Below are positions 21,031 to 32,145 of a stretch of 64,000 nucleotides of DNA, one piece after another. Source of the stretch: Sphingomonadales bacterium (lineage in GTDB: Bacteria; Pseudomonadota; Alphaproteobacteria; Sphingomonadales; Sphingomonadaceae). Numbering within the stretch: the first letter of the stretch is position 1; every line of letters begins with the position of its first letter. The stretch is taken from the NCBI GenBank assembly GCA_009995225.1, contig JAACPW010000015.1, positions 1 to 64,000 on the forward strand, written 5' to 3'. The notes beneath the pieces were generated by a model. The model was given only the letters and a program-made list of their open reading frames with translations. It did no database searches and had not been told where the DNA came from. The translations under genes and the position numbers were made by a program.

Positions 21031-24000
21031 TCAATTGATCCGTGCGCGGATCTGCACCGAGAACTGAGCCCCGGAGGTGCCCTTGGGAAGGCTCCCTTTG
21101 GGATTGAGGCATACGTGGCGCACCTGTGCGTCGTAGCCGACGGCGGGGGTATAGTTGCAATCGGCAAAGGACGCCGGGGCCGCCGCAGCATTGGAAAAGC
21201 GCAGGTCGGTGGCAGGCGTGAACGTAAGCATGGGCGTGCCGCTATTGAACCCGGCGACCCCTCCCAGCAGCGGCGTGCCGGCGTTGAAGAAGGTGATGGC
21301 CGGATCGATCGCGATGGCCACAAATACCGAATCCGGGTCGGTGCTGCCGGTGCCGCCATTGCTGATTGTGGCGGTGAGAAGCACGTCGTTGCCGGGGACA
21401 AAGAAGGCAGCGTCGGCGGGCGGGTCGAACAGCTGAGACGTCATCGCCACCGTCAGCGCGGCGATCCCATCGGCGGTGGCGACGGCGGAAAACTCCGAAG
21501 TGATGTCCCGCTCCCCGGCCGCAGTTCGCCGCGTGGTGGTGGCGGAGATGGCCTCGCCAATGCTGACCGGTTCGAGCGTGGTAAGCGTGCCGGTATAGCG
21601 TTGCGCGCTGCCGAAATGGCTGATGTCGACATGGCCGAGGTAGCGTTCGCCCTCGCCAAAGCCGCTGGGATCGGCGGCGCTGCTGGCGAAGAATTCGATG
21701 CGGTAGCCGTTGGCGGCGGCGGGCGCGTCGAGGGTGAAGGCGTAGCCCAATTGGTTCGTGCCCTTCACGACGGCGCGGATAGCGTCGGGGAAGTTCAACA
21801 GATCATTCGGCCCGTTGTCGCCATCGCCGGGGTCATTCGGCGTGACGCCGTCTGCTCCAAGATCAATGCCCAGACCGGTGTTGGCAAATATCCGGTTGGC
21901 GCCAATCGCAGCCGGCGCCGCGCCTCGCACACCCACGCCGTACCCCCCGGTGTTGCGGATCGTGTTGCCGATGATCTGTGCGCTGCCTGCCGCCATATCC
22001 AGATCGATTCCGGCATTCGCGCCAAAGGCAATGATATTGCCTTCGCCAGCGCCGTTGCCGCCGATGACCAAACCGGAAAGTGAACTGCCGCCCCCGATCT
22101 GGATCAGGGGTTCGATATTGGCAGAGGTGATCGCGCTCGTCCCGTCCGCGCCCATGCCGATGCTGTTCCCGCGGATCGTGACGCCGGAGCCTGTCGAAGC
22201 CCACAAGGCGATCAGCGACGCATCATGTCCGCCGATGACATTGTCCAGAATCGACAGATTGGTGATCGTTGCATTGATGACCACAATCGCGTCGCGGTTG
22301 AACGGGTCTGCGCGCACGCCATTGGCCACCGCCGAATTGCCGCTGGCGTCCGTTCCGATATAATTGCCGATGATGGTGACATCCGTGATCGGACCATCGG
22401 CCGCCTCGATAGCCGTAAGGCCGTTGCGAGCGATGACATTGCGGCCGCCCGCAGTGCCATCACCGATCACGAGATTGCTCACATTCCTGACGAATATGCC
22501 GCGTTCCTGATTCTCAAAGGTGGCGCCGGTGATCGTCACTGCGCCGATGGTGTTGCCCAGAACGGCAACATTGCTCGATCCGTCGATCACGGCGATGCCG
22601 GAAGCGCCGTTCCCGCCGATGACATTGCCCAGCGTTGTGGCATCGCCGCCAAGAGTGACGCCATTGGCTGCGGTCAGCCGAATCCCGTCCTGGCCTGCGC
22701 GGGCGATCACATTGCCGCGAATGAAGACATTGGGCGTGTTGCCGAGCGACAGGCCTTGTTCCGTGCCGGTGATGTGATTGCCTTCGCTTGCAGCAGTGCC
22801 ACCAATCAGCACGTTGGCAATGCTGCCTGCAGCAAAGCGAATGCCGTCGCCGCCATTGCGCATCAGTGCGGACAGATCGCGGGTGAAGCCGATGATATTG
22901 CGCTGGATGCGGATCTGGCCATCCGAGGGAGATATCTGATCGTCACTTTCGAGTGCAATTGCGCCCGAGCCACTGTTTCCTGAAATCAGATTGCGGGTGA
23001 TGTCGCGCCACGTGGCGATACCGAAGAAATTGTTGATCCCGCCACCTGCGTTGGCCCTTGCCGACATGCCAGCCGGGTCAGTGCCGATGAAATTGCCGCG
23101 AATTGCGGTGTTGGTGCTGCCCTGTTCGGTTAACACCCCGACGATGGAATTGGCGGAAATCACGTTGCCCTGGCCTGCATCGAGCCCTCCGATCACCACG
23201 CCGGCCCCCTTGGCCACGACGCCGCGCGTATTGCCGCTGCTGGTGCCATTGGGGAGCAGACCCAGATAATTGCACTGGATTGTGGCTGCGTTGCTGCTTG
23301 CTTGCGCGATGATGGCGTTGTCGAAGCCGGTCAGGGACAAGCCTCTGATGGTCTGGTTGCTGCCGCTCAGCAGCAAGCCGTTGAACCCTCCGCCGCGCAC
23401 ATTCACGCGCAAGTCGTGCCCGCTGCCCGCCCACAAGTCGCGGCACTGGGTGCCCGCCTGCGTCGTGCCGTCGATCACCGTGTCGTTGTCGGTCAGGTTC
23501 GGCAGGGTTGTCGACAGCGTTATGGTGTGCGGCCCTGCGCCGGGGATGGCAAAGGTAATGGTGTCGGCGCCGGGATTGCTGTTGGCGAACTGGATCGCAT
23601 CGCGCAGCGATCCGCTGCCTGAATCATTGGTGTTGGTGACGATCAGCGGATCCGCCGGTCGGAGCGCGAACAGGCCTAAGGTCCATCGCCCAAAAAGGGC
23701 AAATGCGTAGCTCATCGTGGTGCTACCGTTCACCCCGGTCCGCGTGCTTGCGGCTCCGATAACGTCTGCCAAATTCACCACGTTCCAGCGGCTCGTCTGC
23801 CCGCTTCCCGTTATAGCGGAAATGACCTCGTCATTGGCCGCCAGCGTCGCCACCACCAACTGATCGGACGCGCTGGCAACGCTGGCCGAGGCGCTGAACG
23901 CGCCGGTGCCGCTGGTCAAGGTCGAGGCGGCGATCGGGCTGGTCTGGCTGACATTGGCAAAGGATATCGCGCCAACGACCACCGCCGCGCTTCTAGTCAG

Positions 24001-24423
24001 ATTGACGACCACCTGATTGGTCCCGCTCGCCGGGGCGACCCTGCCCCAGACGTCGAGCGTTGCGCCTCCGCCCGCATCAGTGACCCGGCCAAGAAAGGTC
24101 AGCGCCTGCCCGGCATAGGTGACAGAGGCAACAATCGCGTCATCGCGCTCGATTGCGACCGACACGATCAGGTAACGGTTGGTGCCGGTGCCGACCGTGT
24201 GGTTGAACGCGATGGTGCCGGAGGCCGCTTGGAGTGCGGTCGCCGGATCGACGCTGATGCTCTGCGCCGCGACACGGTCCGCACAGCCCAGCACGATCAG
24301 AAGCCCGCATAGCCATAGGCTGACCATCCGAAGCCATCGCGGCAATGCCCGCTCCCCGTTGGACGGCGCTATTGCCCCCGATCCGGCGCGATGCGCGGTT
24401 TGTCCGAAAATGCGGAGCATCAT
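21031..24423 (-). CDS. Exported parallel beta-helix protein with DUF11-type C-terminus (cassette gene 5)
   Basis: A 1,130-residue predicted surface or secreted protein. A late signal-like helix covers residues 33-53 (MVSLWLCGLLIVLG then RVAAQS). Residues about 54-235 form a beta-rich domain. Then NTNDSGSGSLRDAIQFANSN starts a long region of parallel beta-helix repeats (NxIGGNxA, IRGNxI and VxIxGNxIG patterns) to about residue 830. The last 150 residues look like a DUF11-type immunoglobulin-like module. No enzyme active site or Walker motif is evident. ATG 24423 overlaps the stop of the giant barrel protein (ATGA), so the two are translationally coupled. The exact role is unknown. Confidence 0.85.
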   Translation of the reverse strand: MMLRIFGQTAHRAGSGAIAPSNGERALPRWLRMVSLWLCGLLIVLGCADRVAAQSISVDPATALQAASGTIAFNHTVGTGTNRYLIVSVAIERDDAIVASVTYAGQALTFLGRVTDAGGGATLDVWGRVAPASGTNQVVVNLTRSAAVVVGAISFANVSQTSPIAASTLTSGTGAFSASASVASASDQLVVATLAANDEVISAITGSGQTSRWNVVNLADVIGAASTRTGVNGSTTMSYAFALFGRWTLGLFALRPADPLIVTNTNDSGSGSLRDAIQFANSNPGADTITFAIPGAGPHTITLSTTLPNLTDNDTVIDGTTQAGTQCRDLWAGSGHDLRVNVRGGGFNGLLLSGSNQTIRGLSLTGFDNAIIAQASSNAATIQCNYLGLLPNGTSSGNTRGVVAKGAGVVIGGLDAGQGNVISANSIVGVLTEQGSTNTAIRGNFIGTDPAGMSARANAGGGINNFFGIATWRDITRNLISGNSGSGAIALESDDQISPSDGQIRIQRNIIGFTRDLSALMRNGGDGIRFAAGSIANVLIGGTAASEGNHITGTEQGLSLGNTPNVFIRGNVIARAGQDGIRLTAANGVTLGGDATTLGNVIGGNGASGIAVIDGSSNVAVLGNTIGAVTITGATFENQERGIFVRNVSNLVIGDGTAGGRNVIARNGLTAIEAADGPITDVTIIGNYIGTDASGNSAVANGVRADPFNRDAIVVINATITNLSILDNVIGGHDASLIALWASTGSGVTIRGNSIGMGADGTSAITSANIEPLIQIGGGSSLSGLVIGGNGAGEGNIIAFGANAGIDLDMAAGSAQIIGNTIRNTGGYGVGVRGAAPAAIGANRIFANTGLGIDLGADGVTPNDPGDGDNGPNDLLNFPDAIRAVVKGTNQLGYAFTLDAPAAANGYRIEFFASSAADPSGFGEGERYLGHVDISHFGSAQRYTGTLTTLEPVSIGEAISATTTRRTAAGERDITSEFSAVATADGIAALTVAMTSQLFDPPADAAFFVPGNDVLLTATISNGGTGSTDPDSVFVAIAIDPAITFFNAGTPLLGGVAGFNSGTPMLTFTPATDLRFSNAAAAPASFADCNYTPAVGYDAQVRHVCLNPKGSLPKGTSGAQFSVQIRARIN

Positions 24424-27400
24424 GGCGAGCAGGCTCCTGCGGGTTGGCACCGGGACGCCTCCTGCGGCAACGGGGCCGCTGCACTGCTGTCGCCCAGGCC
24501 CAGCAATTGCGCGCCGAATTTGAACCGGATGCCTGCAAACAGGCCCTGATCCAGCGGGCGGTCGAGACTGAAGTCGGGATCGCGAAAACCCGCAATGTTG
24601 TAGCCGAGGCTCATGAGTGTGCCTCTGGCCACCACGAGGTTCGCCTGTGGGCCGATCGCGTAGCTGTAACTGCCATCGGTCACATTGGCGCGGATGCTGG
24701 CGCTGCCGCCAATATCAAGGGTCGCACTCAGCCCGATCCGCAGATCGAGCCCGGCGAGCGCAGTGAGGCCGGCAAGATCCAGACCCTCCACCCGGTCAAA
24801 CCCGTAGCGCGTGCCCAGGAACAGCCCGATTTCGCTCAGCTCCCCCACGCCGCGCCGCGCGCGAGGGGACCAATTGGCCGAGACGCTTCCCAGCAGCCGC
24901 CGCGAAAGGGCATCGCCGTTCACGGTCAGCGCGGTGCGGCCCACCGGGCCAGCCTGCCCGGCGATCGCCCCGGTCACGGCATCGCTGCGATATTCCGCGC
25001 GGCCGAGGAGTGCGATATCCGAATCATCGGGCCGATATGCGAGGGTGAGAGCCGCGTCGATGATTTCAGCGGAAGCTCCGCCGGGCGCGGTGCTGCGGGT
25101 CCAGATCAGACTGCCGCCAAGCGCCTGTCCCTCGCCAAGCTGACGCAGAACGCCCAAAGTCGCGCCAAAGCGGTCGGCGAATTGCCCGTCGCGATACTCG
25201 GCCCGGCCATTGGCAGCCCAGCGCCCGCTGCGCCATGCGCCGCTGACAGTGACAGCGGTGAAATCTTCAAACAACGTGCGATCCACCCCCAAAGGGCCGC
25301 CATTGCCCGGTGGCTGGCCGGGGTTGATGACCGCATCGGGCGCGGGGGTATCGCCAAGGGTACGGTTGCCATCGAGCGTTGCGTTGAAGCTCAGCGTCGG
25401 CGTTGCATTCAGCGTTTGCGCAAAGCCGAAACCGGCAAACGTGCCGCCGCCCGGTGTATCGCCTGTTGTATTCCGACCGAGCGTGGAGGCAACGCGCGCT
25501 CCCTCCCACGGGGTCATGTCCAGCCCGGCCCGCAAGGTGCGCGCCTTGATCGCGGCACTATCGGCCATTTCATAAGTGCCCGTCAGCCGCACATCGCGCG
25601 CCAGCGCATAACGCAGGCCCAGCCGGTAGCGCGGCGGCAGGTCGAGCGATCCCTCGCCCCCGCTAAGGCCAAAGGACGTATCCCCGCTGATCTCCAGCCG
25701 GTTATCGAACAGGCGTTGGCTGGCGGCGGTCTGCAGCAGTGTCGAAGCGCGGCTTTCTCCGCTCGCCAGCCGGTCATCGAAATGGGCCAGCCCAAGCCGC
25801 GCGTCGGTGGCAGCAGAACGCCACGCCAGTTCCACCTGCCCACCGCGCCGCCGCGCCGCATCGGCAAGGCTTTCGTCCTGCAGCAGGCTGGCGATGCCCG
25901 ACACGGTTTCGCTGAACTGGTAGCGGCTATCGACTCCCAGTTTGCGCCGCCCGGTGTCGGCGAAACTCTGCTGGCCGGTGCCATAGGCGGCCTCGACCTG
26001 ACGGGCATAGGCGACCACATCCAGCTTGCCCGTCTGGTGCTGGAGTTCGGCCAGCCAGGCATGGGCCGTCTTACCAGAGCCTGTGCTCACGCCGACTTCG
26101 GCGCGCGCTTCGCTGGCTGTGCCCAACTGCAGCCGGGTGTCGGCGACTGCGACATGGGTGCGCACGCCATCGCTTTGGTCGGTGATGGCCGTCGTCCCGA
26201 TCCGCACTGCGCCTTCAGCCGGACGCCATTCGGCCCGCACGCCGGCATTGATCGCCCCGCCGCCGACCTTGCCGGTTTCATATTCGATGATGATGATCTG
26301 CGGATTGAGGTCAGCGTCGCGCGTCAGGATCGGCTCGCTGAAGGTGATCGTGCCTGACAGCAGATCGATGGTATAATCGATGAACCGGGTCAGGCTGCGA
26401 GAGGCCACCACCACCTCGGACCGGAACCGGTCGCGCACTTCGATGGTGACGCGTTCGGAATTGGTCACAAGGTCGCGGGTGCCAAGCGGGTAGGGCCCGG
26501 CCAGGCCATTGCCCTGAAACTCGTCGCGCCGGAAGGTGCTGCCGATCTGCGCGCCGAAGGCCTCGGCCCGCACAGCGCCGATCTGCGCGGCGGCGCGAAC
26601 CCCGGTGGCGGTGCGTTGATAGCGGCCAAGGGTGGTCTGATCGAACCCGGTCTGGAAGTCGCCGTACAGCGCAAAGAAGGTCGCGGTTTCGATCCGGACA
26701 TACAGGTTTTCGCGCGTGGCGGCATCGAAACGGCGCTGCGAGGTGTCGCCGAACACCGTGTAATAGGCCGCCGGATCGATCGCGCCGAGCAGCGGCTGGT
26801 CCTCGCGCTGCTTGGCGCTGTCATAGGCGAGGGTGAGCAGATACTTCCCCAACACCCGCCCCTTGGCATAAAGCGCAACGCGGGCGTTGCGGCCAAGGTC
26901 GCTGTCGATATTGTCCCCGCGCTCCATATTGCCAGCGATCGACCGCGCGCCGATGCTGGCTTCGCCAAGGCCGATGATGGTCCATTCGACATCGCCCGGC
27001 ACGACCCATGCCTCGATCTCCTGCCGGCGGCGGATATTCTCATGGGCGAAGTCGAAGGCCATACGCAGCTGGCCACTGACCATGGTGGGGGCAAGCTCGA
27101 TCCGGGCGAGTCCCTCATCGCCCTCGATCTGCCAGCGTGCTGTGGCTTCGCCGATGCCGCTGAGCTGGCGCAACTGTTGTTGTTCAATCTGGGCCGCGCT
27201 TTCAAACGGCGCGTTGAGAGTGAAGCTGCCCGAAAGGCCTTCGCGCACCGGACGGCCATTGCGGTCCGTGATGCGCACCACCACCACCGGCCGCGTGGCC
27301 CCGTCGGCGATCAGCAGCGATTTGTCCGCCACCAGTTCCACCCGCGCAGGCTGCGAGGTGAAAAACACCTCGCGTTCAAGCCGCGCATTCACCCCGCCCA

Positions 27401-29570
27401 GCGAATTGATGATCTCGGCGGCCAGCACGGTCCGTTCGTTCAGCAAGGGAATGCCGCGCCACAGGCTGACGGCGTAGCCGCCGCCGGGAGCCTTCAGGGT
27501 GCCATCGAACGCCAGTGGATCGACAGCCTTGCCATCGGCATAAAGGCGAATGGTCTGCCCGGCGCGGTGCCGCACCGCGACCCTGATCGCAGGAACACGC
27601 GGATTGGCGTCCTGCGCCGGGGTGAGCCAGCCATCCGGGCCATCGCCAAGGGCGAGCCAATCGGTTTCGGCGGGCGCGGGTTTGGGTGTGAGCGGCGCAG
27701 CGAGCGCACCGGCACGCGGGCTGTTAAGCGTCACCGCGTCATCAAGCGGCAGGTCATCCGCCAGCGCGAACCGGGGCGCGGTTTCATCAGCCGCAGCGAC
27801 GGCATGGAAATCTGCGCGGGCCAGCGATCCGCCTTGCCCGGTCACGAACTGCGAACCGGCATCGCCAGCGCTGCGGGTCGAGCGCGAACACTCCGCCAGC
27901 CGTGTGCCCGGAGGCAAGGTGCCGCGCACAACCTGAAGCACGTGCGTGCCGGGCACCACGCCTTCGAACCGATAGCGACCCTGGGCATCGGTGACGGCAA
28001 AGCTGCCATCTTCCATGACCACCCGGACCCCGGCAAGGCCGGACGCGGTGCCCGCCGCCGCGCCGCAATCGCCCAGCGTCGCCCGGCCAATGATCGTCAT
28101 CCGGCCCGCGATGCTATCGCGCTCCACCACCACCGCCGCTTCGGCGCGGGCGCTTCGTCCGACCGTGTCACGGATCACGGCGCGGCTGATGAGCTGGCCT
28201 GCGCCTGAGTCGGCGCGGATAGCGGCACCATAGGTAATCCTGACCGCGCCCGATCCCGGCAGACGTTCGATCGCAATGGCCATGCTGCGCCCGTCGGCCG
28301 CCACGCTGACAATGCCGGGCAGCGGCGGCGCGCCGTCGAACCGCAATGTTGCATCCCGCAATCGCAGGCCGCGCGGCAGATCAATCTCCAGCGTCAGCCT
28401 GTGGCGTTCCTGCACCTCGGGATTGCTCAGCGTGAGGCTGTAGACCAGCGGGTCGCCCGGCTGCGCACGGGGGCGCGATAGGGTGAAGGCGAGGCCGGGC
28501 GCCGCTGCGTCCCGATCGACCGGGATATCAACCTCGACAGGCGCGGCGCTGGCCAGCGCGAAATCACCCCCGAAAGACGCCTCGGACACAGCGAAAGCCG
28601 CGCCGTCCGGGTGGGGTAACGCGGCGAGTTGCGATAGCGGGACCGCCGAAGGCGCGACAAAGTCAGGCGGCGGTTCGATTTCCAGTCGGTATCGCCCCAG
28701 CGGTGCAAGCGGAAACCAGTAGCGGCCCGGCTCCATCGGGTAGACGGTGCCGGCAGCATCGGTCACAGGCGCGCCGCTGACCACCGATGCGGGCCAGCGC
28801 GTCACGCCATCCTCTGCCAACACATCCGCCAGAGCGCCGGTGGCCGCATCGCGCAGGGTAACACGCACGCCTGAAACGGGCGTGGCGGTCTCGCTGTCGA
28901 ACACGATGCCGAAGGGATCGGCAAGGATCATGATGTCGCGGGTGGCCGACGCGCCGTCAGGCATCGCGCTGGCGGTGGCCAGCTTGACCTTGTCGCCTGC
29001 GGCGACCGTCACGGCGCAATCATCGCCCTTTTGCTGCGCGCTCGCCCGGTGGGTGGCGATGCTGCCTGCGAACACGCCGGTGTCCGGCCCGGTCTCGAAA
29101 ATTGTGAGATCAGCGCGCGCGCCGGTGCGGCTGCTGACCGTGATTGCCAGTTGGTCGATTGCCGCCCGGTCGCGGTTGGCCTGCGACGCGGCAAGCGTAA
29201 AGATGATGATCTCGCCCGGACGGAATTGGCTGCTGGCGGTTATGGGGAACGCCTGCACCGCTCCCGGCACGCCGGGTCCGCAGCGCGAGGCAGCTAGCGT
29301 CAGTCTGTCCTCGCTTTCCGGCGCGATGCGGAAGGTTTTGAACTGCGGTGCCGCAGCGATCCGCGTTACCAGGACACGGTTGGACGATGCCTCCTGCCAT
29401 GCGCCCGCCTCATTCCAGCGGGCATAGGCGATATTCTCGATGATCCGGTCAGCGGCGCGGGCGACGGTGGCAAAAGCAGACGCAATCAGAACCAGACAGA
29501 CAAACCAAAGCAGCCGCAGCCGGTTACTGCGATGCCCAAACCCCCGGATCGCCTCTGCCACGGTGTCCAC
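24420..29570 (-). CDS. Giant multi-domain protein with predicted outer-membrane beta-barrel (cassette gene 4)
   Basis: About 1,716 residues. A signal peptide (residues 16-39, ending VARA) is followed by beta-rich domains: an N-terminal module starting DRIIENIAYARW, a segment with GVRVTLRDAATGALADV near residue 235, a DUF11-like module (about 350-485), a carboxypeptidase-regulatory/SdrD-B-like repeat (about 495-560), an invasin-type Ig-like domain (about 740-850), and a C-terminal half (about 860-1690) of alternating strands typical of an outer-membrane barrel. No TonB box or plug domain was recognised. The start is uncertain: GTG 29570 follows the upstream gene by 11 bp; GTG 29561 is possible; an ATG at 29696 would overlap it by 115 bp. 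Confidence 0.8.
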   Translation of the reverse strand: MDTVAEAIRGFGHRSNRLRLLWFVCLVLIASAFATVARAADRIIENIAYARWNEAGAWQEASSNRVLVTRIAAAPQFKTFRIAPESEDRLTLAASRCGPGVPGAVQAFPITASSQFRPGEIIIFTLAASQANRDRAAIDQLAITVSSRTGARADLTIFETGPDTGVFAGSIATHRASAQQKGDDCAVTVAAGDKVKLATASAMPDGASATRDIMILADPFGIVFDSETATPVSGVRVTLRDAATGALADVLAEDGVTRWPASVVSGAPVTDAAGTVYPMEPGRYWFPLAPLGRYRLEIEPPPDFVAPSAVPLSQLAALPHPDGAAFAVSEASFGGDFALASAAPVEVDIPVDRDAAAPGLAFTLSRPRAQPGDPLVYSLTLSNPEVQERHRLTLEIDLPRGLRLRDATLRFDGAPPLPGIVSVAADGRSMAIAIERLPGSGAVRITYGAAIRADSGAGQLISRAVIRDTVGRSARAEAAVVVERDSIAGRMTIIGRATLGDCGAAAGTASGLAGVRVVMEDGSFAVTDAQGRYRFEGVVPGTHVLQVVRGTLPPGTRLAECSRSTRSAGDAGSQFVTGQGGSLARADFHAVAAADETAPRFALADDLPLDDAVTLNSPRAGALAAPLTPKPAPAETDWLALGDGPDGWLTPAQDANPRVPAIRVAVRHRAGQTIRLYADGKAVDPLAFDGTLKAPGGGYAVSLWRGIPLLNERTVLAAEIINSLGGVNARLEREVFFTSQPARVELVADKSLLIADGATRPVVVVRITDRNGRPVREGLSGSFTLNAPFESAAQIEQQQLRQLSGIGEATARWQIEGDEGLARIELAPTMVSGQLRMAFDFAHENIRRRQEIEAWVVPGDVEWTIIGLGEASIGARSIAGNMERGDNIDSDLGRNARVALYAKGRVLGKYLLTLAYDSAKQREDQPLLGAIDPAAYYTVFGDTSQRRFDAATRENLYVRIETATFFALYGDFQTGFDQTTLGRYQRTATGVRAAAQIGAVRAEAFGAQIGSTFRRDEFQGNGLAGPYPLGTRDLVTNSERVTIEVRDRFRSEVVVASRSLTRFIDYTIDLLSGTITFSEPILTRDADLNPQIIIIEYETGKVGGGAINAGVRAEWRPAEGAVRIGTTAITDQSDGVRTHVAVADTRLQLGTASEARAEVGVSTGSGKTAHAWLAELQHQTGKLDVVAYARQVEAAYGTGQQSFADTGRRKLGVDSRYQFSETVSGIASLLQDESLADAARRRGGQVELAWRSAATDARLGLAHFDDRLASGESRASTLLQTAASQRLFDNRLEISGDTSFGLSGGEGSLDLPPRYRLGLRYALARDVRLTGTYEMADSAAIKARTLRAGLDMTPWEGARVASTLGRNTTGDTPGGGTFAGFGFAQTLNATPTLSFNATLDGNRTLGDTPAPDAVINPGQPPGNGGPLGVDRTLFEDFTAVTVSGAWRSGRWAANGRAEYRDGQFADRFGATLGVLRQLGEGQALGGSLIWTRSTAPGGASAEIIDAALTLAYRPDDSDIALLGRAEYRSDAVTGAIAGQAGPVGRTALTVNGDALSRRLLGSVSANWSPRARRGVGELSEIGLFLGTRYGFDRVEGLDLAGLTALAGLDLRIGLSATLDIGGSASIRANVTDGSYSYAIGPQANLVVARGTLMSLGYNIAGFRDPDFSLDRPLDQGLFAGIRFKFGAQLLGLGDSSAAAPLPQEASRCQPAGACSP

Positions 29571-29581
29571 ACAGTCAGCGC

Positions 29582-30610
29582 TCAGTTGATGGTAGCGCGG
29601 AACGCGGCGGTGCGGGTTTGATTGCTGGCAATGTCGTCCAGCGGCGCGGTAATAGTGCGCCCGGCAATGCCGCCCCCCGAACTGCCGCCTGTGCAATTGT
29701 TCGCGCCATCAAGCGTGCCGTTGACGAGAAGGCTGCCGGTCACAAAGGTCAGATCATCTGGCAGAATATCGGTCACCACCACGCTGGACGCAGTGGCGGT
29801 TCCGGCATTGTTGCGAACCGCGACGCAGTATTCGACCGTCGCACCCGGAATCGCCTTGGGATTGGTGGACCCGTTGACGGGGTCATCAAGCACCCGACTG
29901 GTCTTCGTAACTGTCAGATCGGCAGCCGATACGGTGTAACTGCCGCGCGTGGTGAAGACCCCGTCGTTCGCGCTGTCATCAGAGCCCGCGCCATCGGCCA
30001 GCACAGTGTCGGTGCCACCGGTGTTGGCGCCGGATGTGGCTGTCAGCACCCCGCCTTGGGCCCCGGGCGTATTGCCAGCATGGGCGGTCGCGGACAGGAA
30101 CAGGTTGGCGACATCGCCATTGGCCCGGTCCAAGGAAATGTTGCTCACGACAAACACCCGCACTGTGGTGTCTTCCGCGATTTCGTCGATCAGCGCGGTT
30201 GCAGCGTCGCCTGCGTCATACACGCCGTTGCCATTATCGACGTAGATCGTGACGCTGTCAGCGTCGAAATCATCCCCGCCCGAGGCCTGCGTCACGGCCA
30301 GCACGATATCGATGGTGTCATTCGAAAGGATGGTGACGTCAAACGCGATCACCGCCCCGTTCTGTCCGGGCGCGACCGTAGTGGTCGTATCGGGAACGCG
30401 GGCGACCACCAGATTGACCTTGCGATCGACTGTAAACAGATCGGATGCGGTCTCCTTGGTCTGCTGGACTCCGGCCACCTGATAATCGACCGTCGCGGTA
30501 TTGGTAATCACAGTGCCGGCGCGCGTGCCTTCGGCGCGGACAGGCGCGGTTTGGACGGCAATGATCGCACTTGCAGCCAGCAGCGCGGTCCATTTTGAAC
30601 GGCGTGTCAT
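29582..30610 (-). CDS. Exported DUF11-type protein (cassette gene 3)
   Basis: A 342-residue exported protein. The signal peptide ends near APVRAEG. The mature part starts TRAGTVITNTATVDYQVAG, the typical opening of this DUF11-type group, and has two immunoglobulin-like modules. The second module (from ADLTVTKTSRVLDDPVNGS) is a canonical DUF11 repeat with VVVTDILPDDLTFV. The acidic motif YVDNGNGVYDAGD near residue 130 resembles a calcium-binding loop. ATG 30610 has GGAG nine bases upstream; the ATG five codons earlier has poor spacing. It is followed 11 bp later by the giant barrel gene. Confidence 0.85.
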   Translation of the reverse strand: MTRRSKWTALLAASAIIAVQTAPVRAEGTRAGTVITNTATVDYQVAGVQQTKETASDLFTVDRKVNLVVARVPDTTTTVAPGQNGAVIAFDVTILSNDTIDIVLAVTQASGGDDFDADSVTIYVDNGNGVYDAGDAATALIDEIAEDTTVRVFVVSNISLDRANGDVANLFLSATAHAGNTPGAQGGVLTATSGANTGGTDTVLADGAGSDDSANDGVFTTRGSYTVSAADLTVTKTSRVLDDPVNGSTNPKAIPGATVEYCVAVRNNAGTATASSVVVTDILPDDLTFVTGSLLVNGTLDGANNCTGGSSGGGIAGRTITAPLDDIASNQTRTAAFRATIN

Positions 30611-30650
30611 CTTGGTTGGCTCCATCCCTCACCGTCGACAGCGAACGCCA

Positions 30651-31145
<495 letters not shown>

Positions 31146-31155
31146 GGTGAGGCTC

Positions 31156-32145
31156 CTATTCCTCGATCAGGACGGCGAAGGTGACGGTTCTTGAAGTCCC
31201 GCCCGGCACAGTGCCCAGCGTCACGGCGATGCCGGCAGGCGATGCCTCGCCCGGATCGTCACCCACCGCATCGGTCAACGGCGCGCTATCGAGGTTGAGG
31301 GAGCCGGGTACGTAACGGGTGCCAGCGGGAATGGCATCGGAAATGACCAGGGTATCGACGGGCGCGGAGCCGCTGACAGACGCGGAAATGCCATAGGTGA
31401 TGGTCGCGCCCGGAGCGGCGGTTGATCCGCCAAACGGATCGCTGACCGATGCCCACTTGACCAGCGTGACTGTGCTGGCGCTGCCGACCATCTGACCCGT
31501 GGCGGTGGCCATGCCGCCGCCAGCGCCGGCCATCGCATCAGCGCCGTTATCGCCTGCGCCTGCGAACACGGTGCCGGGTGCGCCAGAGCCGGTCGTAGTG
31601 CGTGCGATCAGATTGAGCGCGCTTTGCGCCCCATCGCCGATCCCGGTGGGCACGGTGACAATGACGAACACCCGCTGCGCGGCGCCCGCAGGCAGGGTTG
31701 CGGTGGTGCTGGGCGCGGGCAGCACCGCATCCACGCCCGGATCATACACCCCGTTGTCATTTGTATCGACCGCGATGCTATCGCGCGTGGCATCGAAGGC
31801 GTTGCCGGGCACGGCGGTCACAACCTCAAGCACAACCGCCTCTGGCCCGTTGCCGCTATTGCTGACAAGAAAGGCGAGAACGGCCGGCCCGCTGCGGACC
31901 GGGACGGGCCCTGCATCGAGCGAGGCCGCCGCCACGCTCAGCAATTCATCCACCCTGACCTGCACCGTATTCGAACTGACAGTGCGCGCCACGCCGCCTT
32001 CGTCATATGTCGCCTCGGCGGTGGTCTCGATCAGCGTGCCTGCCGGCACCGGACTGGCGGCGGCGGGATGTCCCGCAAGCAGCACAGCGGCGCCAAGGCC
32101 GAAGCATGACGCGGAAGAGAACAAGGTGAACACGCGGCTAAGCAT
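31156..32145 (-). CDS. Exported DUF11-type protein (cassette gene 1)
   Basis: A 329-residue exported protein and the first gene of the five-gene unit. A signal peptide ends near HPAAASP. The mature part starts VPAGTLIETTAEATYDEGG, the same opening as cassette genes 3 and 4. It contains the acidic motif VDTNDNGVYDPGVDAVL near residue 125. A second immunoglobulin-like module near residues 235-329 holds LVISDAIPAGTRYVPGSL. ATG 32145 is preferred over a TTG seven codons earlier. Ten bases separate its stop from cassette gene 2. It may be a structural paralogue of gene 3. Confidence 0.82.
   Translation of the reverse strand: MLSRVFTLFSSASCFGLGAAVLLAGHPAAASPVPAGTLIETTAEATYDEGGVARTVSSNTVQVRVDELLSVAAASLDAGPVPVRSGPAVLAFLVSNSGNGPEAVVLEVVTAVPGNAFDATRDSIAVDTNDNGVYDPGVDAVLPAPSTTATLPAGAAQRVFVIVTVPTGIGDGAQSALNLIARTTTGSGAPGTVFAGAGDNGADAMAGAGGGMATATGQMVGSASTVTLVKWASVSDPFGGSTAAPGATITYGISASVSGSAPVDTLVISDAIPAGTRYVPGSLNLDSAPLTDAVGDDPGEASPAGIAVTLGTVPGGTSRTVTFAVLIEE

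Follow-up and report, generated by a model that had tools for sequence, protein, structure and literature searches.

The window analysed here is a 64,000-nucleotide stretch of DNA from a Sphingomonadales bacterium (contig JAACPW010000015.1, positions 1 to 64,000). On its minus strand, at 21031-32145, open reading frame (ORF) analysis places five genes encoding exported proteins, which we call A, B, C, D and E in gene order, A first. We lean, with modest confidence, towards the view that these genes encode an outer-membrane assembly that displays cargo on a head-to-tail, mostly covalent fibre anchored on D. The subunits probably complete each other's folds head to tail on D, with covalent linkage probable; from conservation we infer both the strand exchange and the bonding. 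The module itself and its pairing with a cargo protein are well supported by gene order and by co-occurrence across genomes.

The initial annotation of this DNA had described a five-gene set on one strand, and the ORF coordinates agree: 10 bases separate A from B, 40 separate B from C and 11 separate C from D, and the stop of D overlaps the start of E as ATGA. Each protein begins with a signal-peptide-like segment with an AxA-type site, judged by eye, in line with the signal sequences claimed for all five. That annotation missed a second copy of the set in the same genome, the variability of E, the truncated C-termini of A, B, C and E, and the likeness of the mature opening to the asparagine-bearing piece that these C-termini lack.

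A conserved gene order

Among 149 genomes of the family, D was matched at E 1e-10 in 53, of which 48 were strong matches (E 1e-200 or better); in a few of these 48 the D gene is interrupted by contig ends. Short weak or fragmentary matches occur in five family genomes (G052, G098, G102, G107 and G148; G and L numbers denote the genomes and loci compared). With a D profile, matches were obtained at 1e-10 in 48 of the 196 genomes sampled from the order, and at 1e-8 in 10 of 289 from the class and 55 of 398 from the phylum; these three samples overlap and contain the bacterium's own and same-family genomes, and the counts include distant relatives. No phage record searched matched D at 1e-10.

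For the gene neighbourhood we assembled 122 loci, all selected for D: the window, the second copy, 40 others and the best 80 of 583 confirmed D places, mostly from Erythrobacteraceae, Novosphingobium and other Sphingomonadales. Dropping seven duplicates left 115 distinct loci, in which A, B and C were sought upstream. Wherever 3.2 kb or more is available upstream of D, which is the case in 105 distinct loci, the order is A-B-C-D. Among the ten with less upstream sequence, three read A-B-C-D, six are incomplete (L085, L088, L092, L123, L130 and L138) and one, L120, gives a disordered reading. Conservation of the order outside this strain, which the initial annotation had left to be checked, is thus borne out, and given the 105 of 105 loci and the two copies in one genome, the module is not a chance arrangement. 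The commonest family of flanking ORFs occurs in only 15 of the 115 loci, so no sixth conserved gene was found.

Twenty additional loci lie outside the main set, three of them in the same family (L214-L216) and the others elsewhere in the class or phylum. L199 and L214 keep A-B-C-D-E, and L200 reads E-A-B-C-D. In L203-L205, B and two C-like genes precede D, and L201, L202, L210 and L211 keep part of the set. Several other distant loci carry a two-gene variant, a protein of about 700-2,800 amino acids followed by a barrel protein of 1,100-1,430 amino acids.

Some further observations concern these relatives. Such a protein of about 700-2,800 amino acids often precedes the distant relatives of the D barrel core (the two-gene variant is seen at L157-L163, L166-L169, L206, L207, L209 and L218), and relatives of this core also occur on plasmids of Sinorhizobium, Devosia, Eleftheria and Pacificitalea. 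A plasmid of Acinetobacter haemolyticus encodes a relative with 28% identity over 60% of D; there, D and several neighbours are annotated as 'DUF11 domain-containing protein', and the gene after D belongs to the OmpA family. Gene A of one locus (L058 12646-13619, on the contig that also holds L121) is broken into two overlapping ORFs, which are 146 and 178 amino acids long. A metagenome-assembled genome labelled Woeseia (L108) carries an Erythrobacter-like cassette whose E is apparently near that of L054, possibly a binning error.

A variable protein, the probable cargo, accompanies D

The fifth gene is the variable member of the set. We located E around D with a profile of the E C-terminal domain. 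Of the 100 distinct loci in which 2.6 kb or more follows D, 83 have a protein with this domain beside D: 77 on the same strand, 51 of these with the 4-base overlap, and six convergent. Of the 86 E proteins collected, 49 were scanned for domains. By Pfam, 31 have DUF11, 15 P_proprotein, nine SpaA_3, four CshA_NR2, two Laminin_G_3 and one Beta_helix; by NCBIfam, 42 have TIGR01451. Domains such as CshA_NR2, SpaA, the P-domain, laminin-G and the beta-helix are characteristic of surface adhesins. The sole Beta_helix match is the window E, in which both Beta_helix and NosD score above their cut-offs. The description of E as a 1,130-residue beta-helix protein is therefore right for the window, but such an E is not typical. 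Two of the cargo proteins matched the N-terminal model of AgmC, a gliding-motility protein.

The cargo-domain profile was built from 27 rows of E and two of C, and also detects gene C. We searched 26 chosen genomes with it: the bacterium's own, 11 with D in which E is not directly downstream, and 14 without D. All 12 genomes with D were matched, each with at least one match other than C, and none of the 14 without D. Among the 149 family genomes, the profile matched the 48 with a strong D and no others (0 of 101). In 46 of the 48, a match outside gene C reaches the end of the profile (read by eye from the match table); such a match is missing from G025, whose 380-contig assembly gave two partial matches, and from G037, in which D lies at a contig end. 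In 24 of the 48, again counted by eye and with a few assemblies fragmented, a cargo match lies on another contig or far from D. We attach no P value to this co-occurrence, since genomes of one family are not independent. Thirty loci were fetched from the search of the 26 genomes; 21 are of cargo type (L219-L237, L244 and L246) and the other nine are gene C. All 21 cargo-type proteins stop 0-1 residue past the domain.

Two loci are worth recording beside these. At L057 9657-15290, three successive cargo genes with a common C-terminal domain run convergent to D, and all three are without the conserved lysine and aspartate described below. In G148, the D match (G148:C31:826-1493) consists merely of short D fragments with stop codons and no cargo-domain match was obtained, consistent with joint loss.

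A large predicted barrel in D

The initial annotation had ascribed a barrel-like C-terminus to the largest protein, and structure prediction does yield a many-stranded barrel there, of roughly 30 or more strands (mean predicted local distance difference test score, pLDDT, 75; predicted template modelling score, pTM, 0.72). The top Foldseek match is 7zgx (E 1.4e-7), with a template modelling (TM) score of 0.22-0.24. The Foldseek and VIA-align lists include SlpA, LptD, FimD, MtrB and porins, with low TM scores or tied Z scores; FimD, for example, ties LptD at a structural Z of 12.5. SprA is also among the Foldseek matches, as a weak, fold-level likeness. With match lists so mixed, assignment of the D barrel to a single known family is not supported. 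By sequence, D matches CarboxypepD_reg above the Pfam cut-off and SdrD_B, Big_1 and MtrB/PioB below it, and its profiles gave solely DUF11-type or weak matches against the PDB.

Classical autotransporters have an N-terminal modular part and a C-terminal barrel. D has the same two parts, and its barrel has no clear likeness to any one solved barrel, so D might be a giant autotransporter-like protein that displays its own N-terminal stalk, with A, B, C and E as separate matrix or adhesin exports that share the operon. No autotransporter barrel family was found for D, however, in Pfam up to E 1 or in NCBIfam up to E 0.1, and the conserved A-B-C-D order and the restriction of the cargo domain to genomes with D suggest one machine; we regard this explanation as improbable. 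The earlier proposal of a barrel protein that anchors the other four or displays them fits the gene order, the predicted barrel and the co-occurrence of cargo with D; the surface display that it includes stays putative.

Truncated domains and N-terminal tails

The domain family at issue is DUF11. In Pfam, C scores 31.3 bits against a cut-off of 24.6, which places it in PF01345, and A (16.3 bits) and B (15.3 bits) fall below; NCBIfam TIGR01451 is above its cut-off in A and C. In all three proteins the DUF11 match lies at the C-terminus and ends at profile position 83-84 of 114. According to PMC12617251, the DUF11 domain of PDB 9IFR has nine strands, the last one after the bonded asparagine. We use the word tail for the last strands of this fold, beyond the point at which the C-terminal domains of A, B, C and E end. 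A complete-domain profile reached the tail in 115 of 115 internal D domains, 99 of 135 internal E domains and 103 of 130 domains of other proteins. For C-terminal domains it did so in 0 of 106 in A, 5 of 60 in B and 10 of 111 in C.

The piece that these domains lack resembles the N-termini of A, C and D. The initial annotation had noted a common mature opening in three proteins; this opening is real in A, C and D and is conserved in their relatives. We built a tail profile from 115 complete domains (77 from near-locus proteins other than A-D, 21 from far loci and 17 from D) and slid it along the alignments of A, B, C and D as 614 overlapping forty-column windows, with P values uncorrected for the 614 windows. 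Ranks 1-42 were all taken either by the internal D tail (14 windows), which serves as a partly circular control, or by N-terminal windows of A, C or D. The best A window ranked 6 (P 8e-5, 35 columns aligned), the best C window 11 (P 3e-4) and the best D window 27 (P 7e-4, 27 columns). The first window of any other kind came at rank 43 (P 0.02), and the best N-terminal window of B at rank 455.

In tandem DUF11 arrays the tail directly follows its own core. A tail at an N-terminus, by contrast, is preceded in its chain by no core to which it could belong, and this is what suggests pairing between subunits. We also considered that the tail might belong to the domain that follows it, with no truncation at all. 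This is less likely: the 9IFR domain includes Asn806 and a later strand, and in C the structural matches delimit two domains, at 65-229 and, C-terminally, at 230-342, both preceded by the hairpin at 34-60.

Lysine, aspartate and asparagine

In 9IFR, a crystal structure described in PMC12617251, Lys715 and Asn806 of one chain are bonded, with Asp748 the presumed catalyst. The internal domain of D aligns to this structure with lysine, aspartate and asparagine in register, the aligned aspartate falling one residue off the printed number. Counted over distinct sequences, this internal domain has the lysine in 108, the aspartate in 110 and the asparagine in 108 of 110; the window D is among those without the lysine and the asparagine.

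The truncated domains retain the first two residues. The lysine and the aspartate are present in 108 and 109 of 111 A domains and in 110 each of 111 C domains, and both together in 81 of 86 E C-terminal domains. B differs, with lysine in 57 and arginine in 30 of 109 and asparagine at the aspartate position in 99 of 109. The third residue is found in the tails: the asparagine occurs in 103 of 111 A tails (four gaps, three serines and one threonine, which is the window), 107 of 111 C tails (four gaps) and 108 of 110 D tails (one gap, one glutamine), and Asn46 of D is invariant in 17 aligned rows. Lysine, aspartate and asparagine within one domain, the arrangement that defines CLIPPER, are thus found in the internal domain of nearly all D relatives, the window D excepted, and not in the C-terminal domains of A, C and E, which end before the asparagine tail. 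In the aligned sequences, then, the triad is split, with lysine and aspartate in domains that end before the asparagine and the asparagine at N-termini. With lysine and aspartate kept in the truncated A, C and E domains, and asparagine in the tails, most joints are predicted to be covalent.

A second copy in the same genome

A second A-B-C-D-E set lies on another contig (L005 6582-16315). It is 50% identical to the window in A, 44% in B, 45% in C and 51-53% in D, and its E resembles the window E in the last ~140 residues only, at 31% identity. The second copy retains the lysine and aspartate of E and the tail asparagine of A. The window copy has lost these three residues and, in the internal D domain, the lysine and asparagine, keeping the aspartate there; it may be a drifting paralogue. 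With E lacking its lysine and aspartate and A its tail asparagine, covalent joints in the window copy would be confined to those of the A or C C-terminal domain with the C or D tail. Next to the second copy lie, by eye, a gene for a 1,087-amino-acid DNA methylase-like protein of a restriction system (L005 1816-5079) and, on the opposite side, a molybdenum-dehydrogenase-like gene (L005 16340-18556).

Proposed assembly

D would serve as an outer-membrane platform, with a C-terminal barrel and a long modular N-terminal part that starts with a two-strand DUF11 tail. A, B and C would be stalk or adaptor subunits and E an exchangeable adhesin-like cargo. The exported subunits would meet in the periplasm, where the tail of one would enter the C-terminal domain of another, so that the N-terminal tails of A, C and D supply the missing last strands of the C-terminal domains of A, B, C and E in a head-to-tail chain. 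The chain would be anchored on the tail-bearing D and extended by A and C; having no tail, B and E would be restricted to its tail-free end. Isopeptide bonds between lysine and asparagine would form, without sortase, where both residues are present. The barrel may also be an exit route, and cargos with the same C-terminal domain that are encoded elsewhere in the genome would use the same platform. We infer the docking, the bond formation, the export through the barrel and the role in adhesion.

Several observations weigh against this assembly. Three early tests of the tail idea came out weak or negative. An hhalign comparison of the N-termini with the internal D domain gave P 0.19-0.33, which is not significant, albeit with the right register for A. 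A scan of single sequences with a tail hidden Markov model (HMM) gave median best scores of 0.6 bits for A and 1.7 for C, again not significant; the best match was N-terminal in 64 A and 68 C proteins, out of 111 each, and the internal D domain scored up to 20 bits. In fused chains, the Pfam score of the window C changed by +4.3 bits with the C tail, +4.2 with the D tail and +0.2 with the A tail, and by -1.1 and +1.7 bits in the controls; in the second copy, DUF11 fell by 1.4-4.2 bits in all three fusions and DUF7933 rose by 1.0-5.0. By these early tests the tail idea is weak; the profile slide and the residue counts strengthen it. Even in the slide, the C match covers 12 of 37 columns, against 35 columns for A and 27 for D. 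Among E C-terminal domains the complete-domain profile did reach the tail region in 13 of 29; our attribution of this, unproved, is to misalignment, with long inserts drawn into the tail. At the level of genes, 17 of the 100 loci have no cargo beside D, and two of the three further same-family loci (L215 and L216) read A-C-D with B unmatched, so B is not strictly needed. The window E and A lack key residues, and an AlphaFold2 (AF2) monomer model of C is confident across the mature part and hence demands no partner. Lastly, the terminal residues of A and C could act as acceptors within their own chains.

This last point leads to a different chemistry, an intramolecular bond in which the last residue of A or C accepts the lysine of the same domain and the N-terminal tail is merely structural. 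As such a bond would have it, 80 of 111 A proteins and 87 of 111 C proteins end in asparagine or aspartate; however, only 26 of 86 E proteins do and none of 109 B, and the asparagine of 9IFR sits in the tail, beyond the strand at which these chains end. We consider this very improbable.

A stronger challenge is that the C-terminal domain of A, B, C and E is a non-covalent sorting signal that docks on D or its partners with no exchange of strands, its lysine and aspartate, and the asparagine of the tails, being kept for folding. This would account equally well for the co-occurrence of the cargo domain with D, agrees with the confident fold of the C monomer, and is consistent with the window E, which, if functional, does without lysine and aspartate. 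It leaves three things unexplained: the truncation of these domains before the tail, which the internal D domains retain; the resemblance between that tail and the N-termini of A, C and D; and the presence of a conserved asparagine in tails with no DUF11 core before them. We therefore hold it to be rather unlikely and retain the head-to-tail assembly as our preferred reading.

Table 1. The five genes and their features in the window
Feature	Position	Strand	Description
Gene A	31156-32145	-	329 aa (amino acids): N-terminal DUF11-like tail, middle domain, truncated C-terminal DUF11-like domain
A mature N-terminal tail, residues 35-67	31945-32043	-	slide rank 6 of 614; Asn position is Thr here
Gene B	30651-31145	-	164 aa: single truncated DUF11-like domain, without tail
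Gene C	29582-30610	-	342 aa: tail, immunoglobulin-like (Ig-like) domain, truncated C-terminal DUF11 domain with Lys236 and Asp281
C N-terminal tail hairpin, residues 30-60	30431-30523	-	conserved Asn37
C truncated C-terminal DUF11 domain, residues 230-342	29585-29923	-	Lys236 at 29903-29905, Asp281 at 29768-29770
Gene D	24420-29570	-	1,716 aa, GTG start; putative outer-membrane barrel platform
D N-terminal tail, residues 41-68	29367-29450	-	conserved Asn46; slide rank 27 of 614
D internal complete DUF11 domain, residues 353-492	28095-28514	-	control domain; PDB 9ifr match, E 2e-5
D predicted beta-barrel, residues ~957-1690	24501-26702	-	structure model, mean pLDDT 75, pTM 0.72
Gene E	21031-24423	-	1,130 aa: predicted variable cargo, here a right-handed beta-helix; ATG overlaps D stop (ATGA)
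E Beta_helix and NosD region, residues 474-653	22465-23004	-	Pfam
E conserved C-terminal domain, residues 988-1130	21034-21462	-	Lys and Asp positions are Met and Ile here

Significance and comparison with known systems

DUF11 domains, beta-helices and barrels are known kinds of structure; their combination here appears to be new, and no description of the five-gene system was found in the literature searched, which largely excluded subscription journals. Tentatively, and at a little short of even confidence, we propose that a natural split isopeptide domain provides sortase-free ligation, giving a covalent fibre with exchangeable cargo on a barrel of at least 30 strands in Gram-negative cells. 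If true, this would be an outer-membrane assembly system that Sphingomonadales conserve and that has relatives in other classes of their phylum; it would come with a cargo tag of its own, and many 'DUF11 domain-containing proteins' of unknown role would become recognisable as clients. It would also be a natural counterpart to laboratory tag/catcher protein ligation and would show a possible route to covalent Gram-negative surface fibres without sortase. The pairing of platform and cargo and the giant barrel stay directly testable even if the bond is wrong.

Among known systems, type 9 secretion is similar in that a C-terminal domain tags cargos encoded apart from the machine and in having a very large barrel, SprA. 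It differs in that neither D nor the cargo has a sequence match to a type 9 secretion system (T9SS) family or PDB entry: the families of its barrel and sorting domains were matched by none of the five window proteins or the 49 E proteins in Pfam and NCBIfam, and there are weak fold matches only. The S-layer deinoxanthin-binding complex of Deinococcus, with SlpA, is the top Foldseek match of the D barrel, at a TM score far below that of a shared overall fold.

Chaperone-usher pili (FimD, PapC), which assemble by donor-strand complementation, resemble the system described here in its predicted large barrel and its apparently incomplete Ig subunits. Here, by contrast, no usher family is among the Pfam matches of D up to E 1, no chaperone family was matched by the five window proteins in Pfam or NCBIfam, the tail has two strands and the joints are predicted to be covalent.

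The AbpX bundling pili form a donor-strand filament. AbpX pilins (9rhp and 9sj2) are the best PDB sequence matches of the cargo domain, weak and not significant (E 0.038 and 0.14), and the sequence profile of C gave one PDB match, at chance level; these pili are archaeal and have no barrel. The literature searched on DUF11 with donor strands and on AbpX comprises PMC11952670. Archaeal threads (Saci_0406) are a head-to-tail donor-strand filament too, and an isopeptide bond between their subunits has been proposed; in the accessible portion of PMC9715654 this bond joins the N-terminal alpha-amino group to an asparagine, between subunits n+2 and n. Being archaeal, threads have no outer membrane, and that portion of the text does not mention DUF11.

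Closest in domain family is DUF11/CLIPPER (PF01345, 9IFR), to which the internal D domain aligns in register. DUF11 domains occur in the stalks of surface adhesins, those of Gram-negative bacteria included, according to PMC12617251. The CLIPPER bond lies within one chain, whereas here the lysine and aspartate, on the one hand, and the asparagine, on the other, are on different chains or at opposite ends of a chain.

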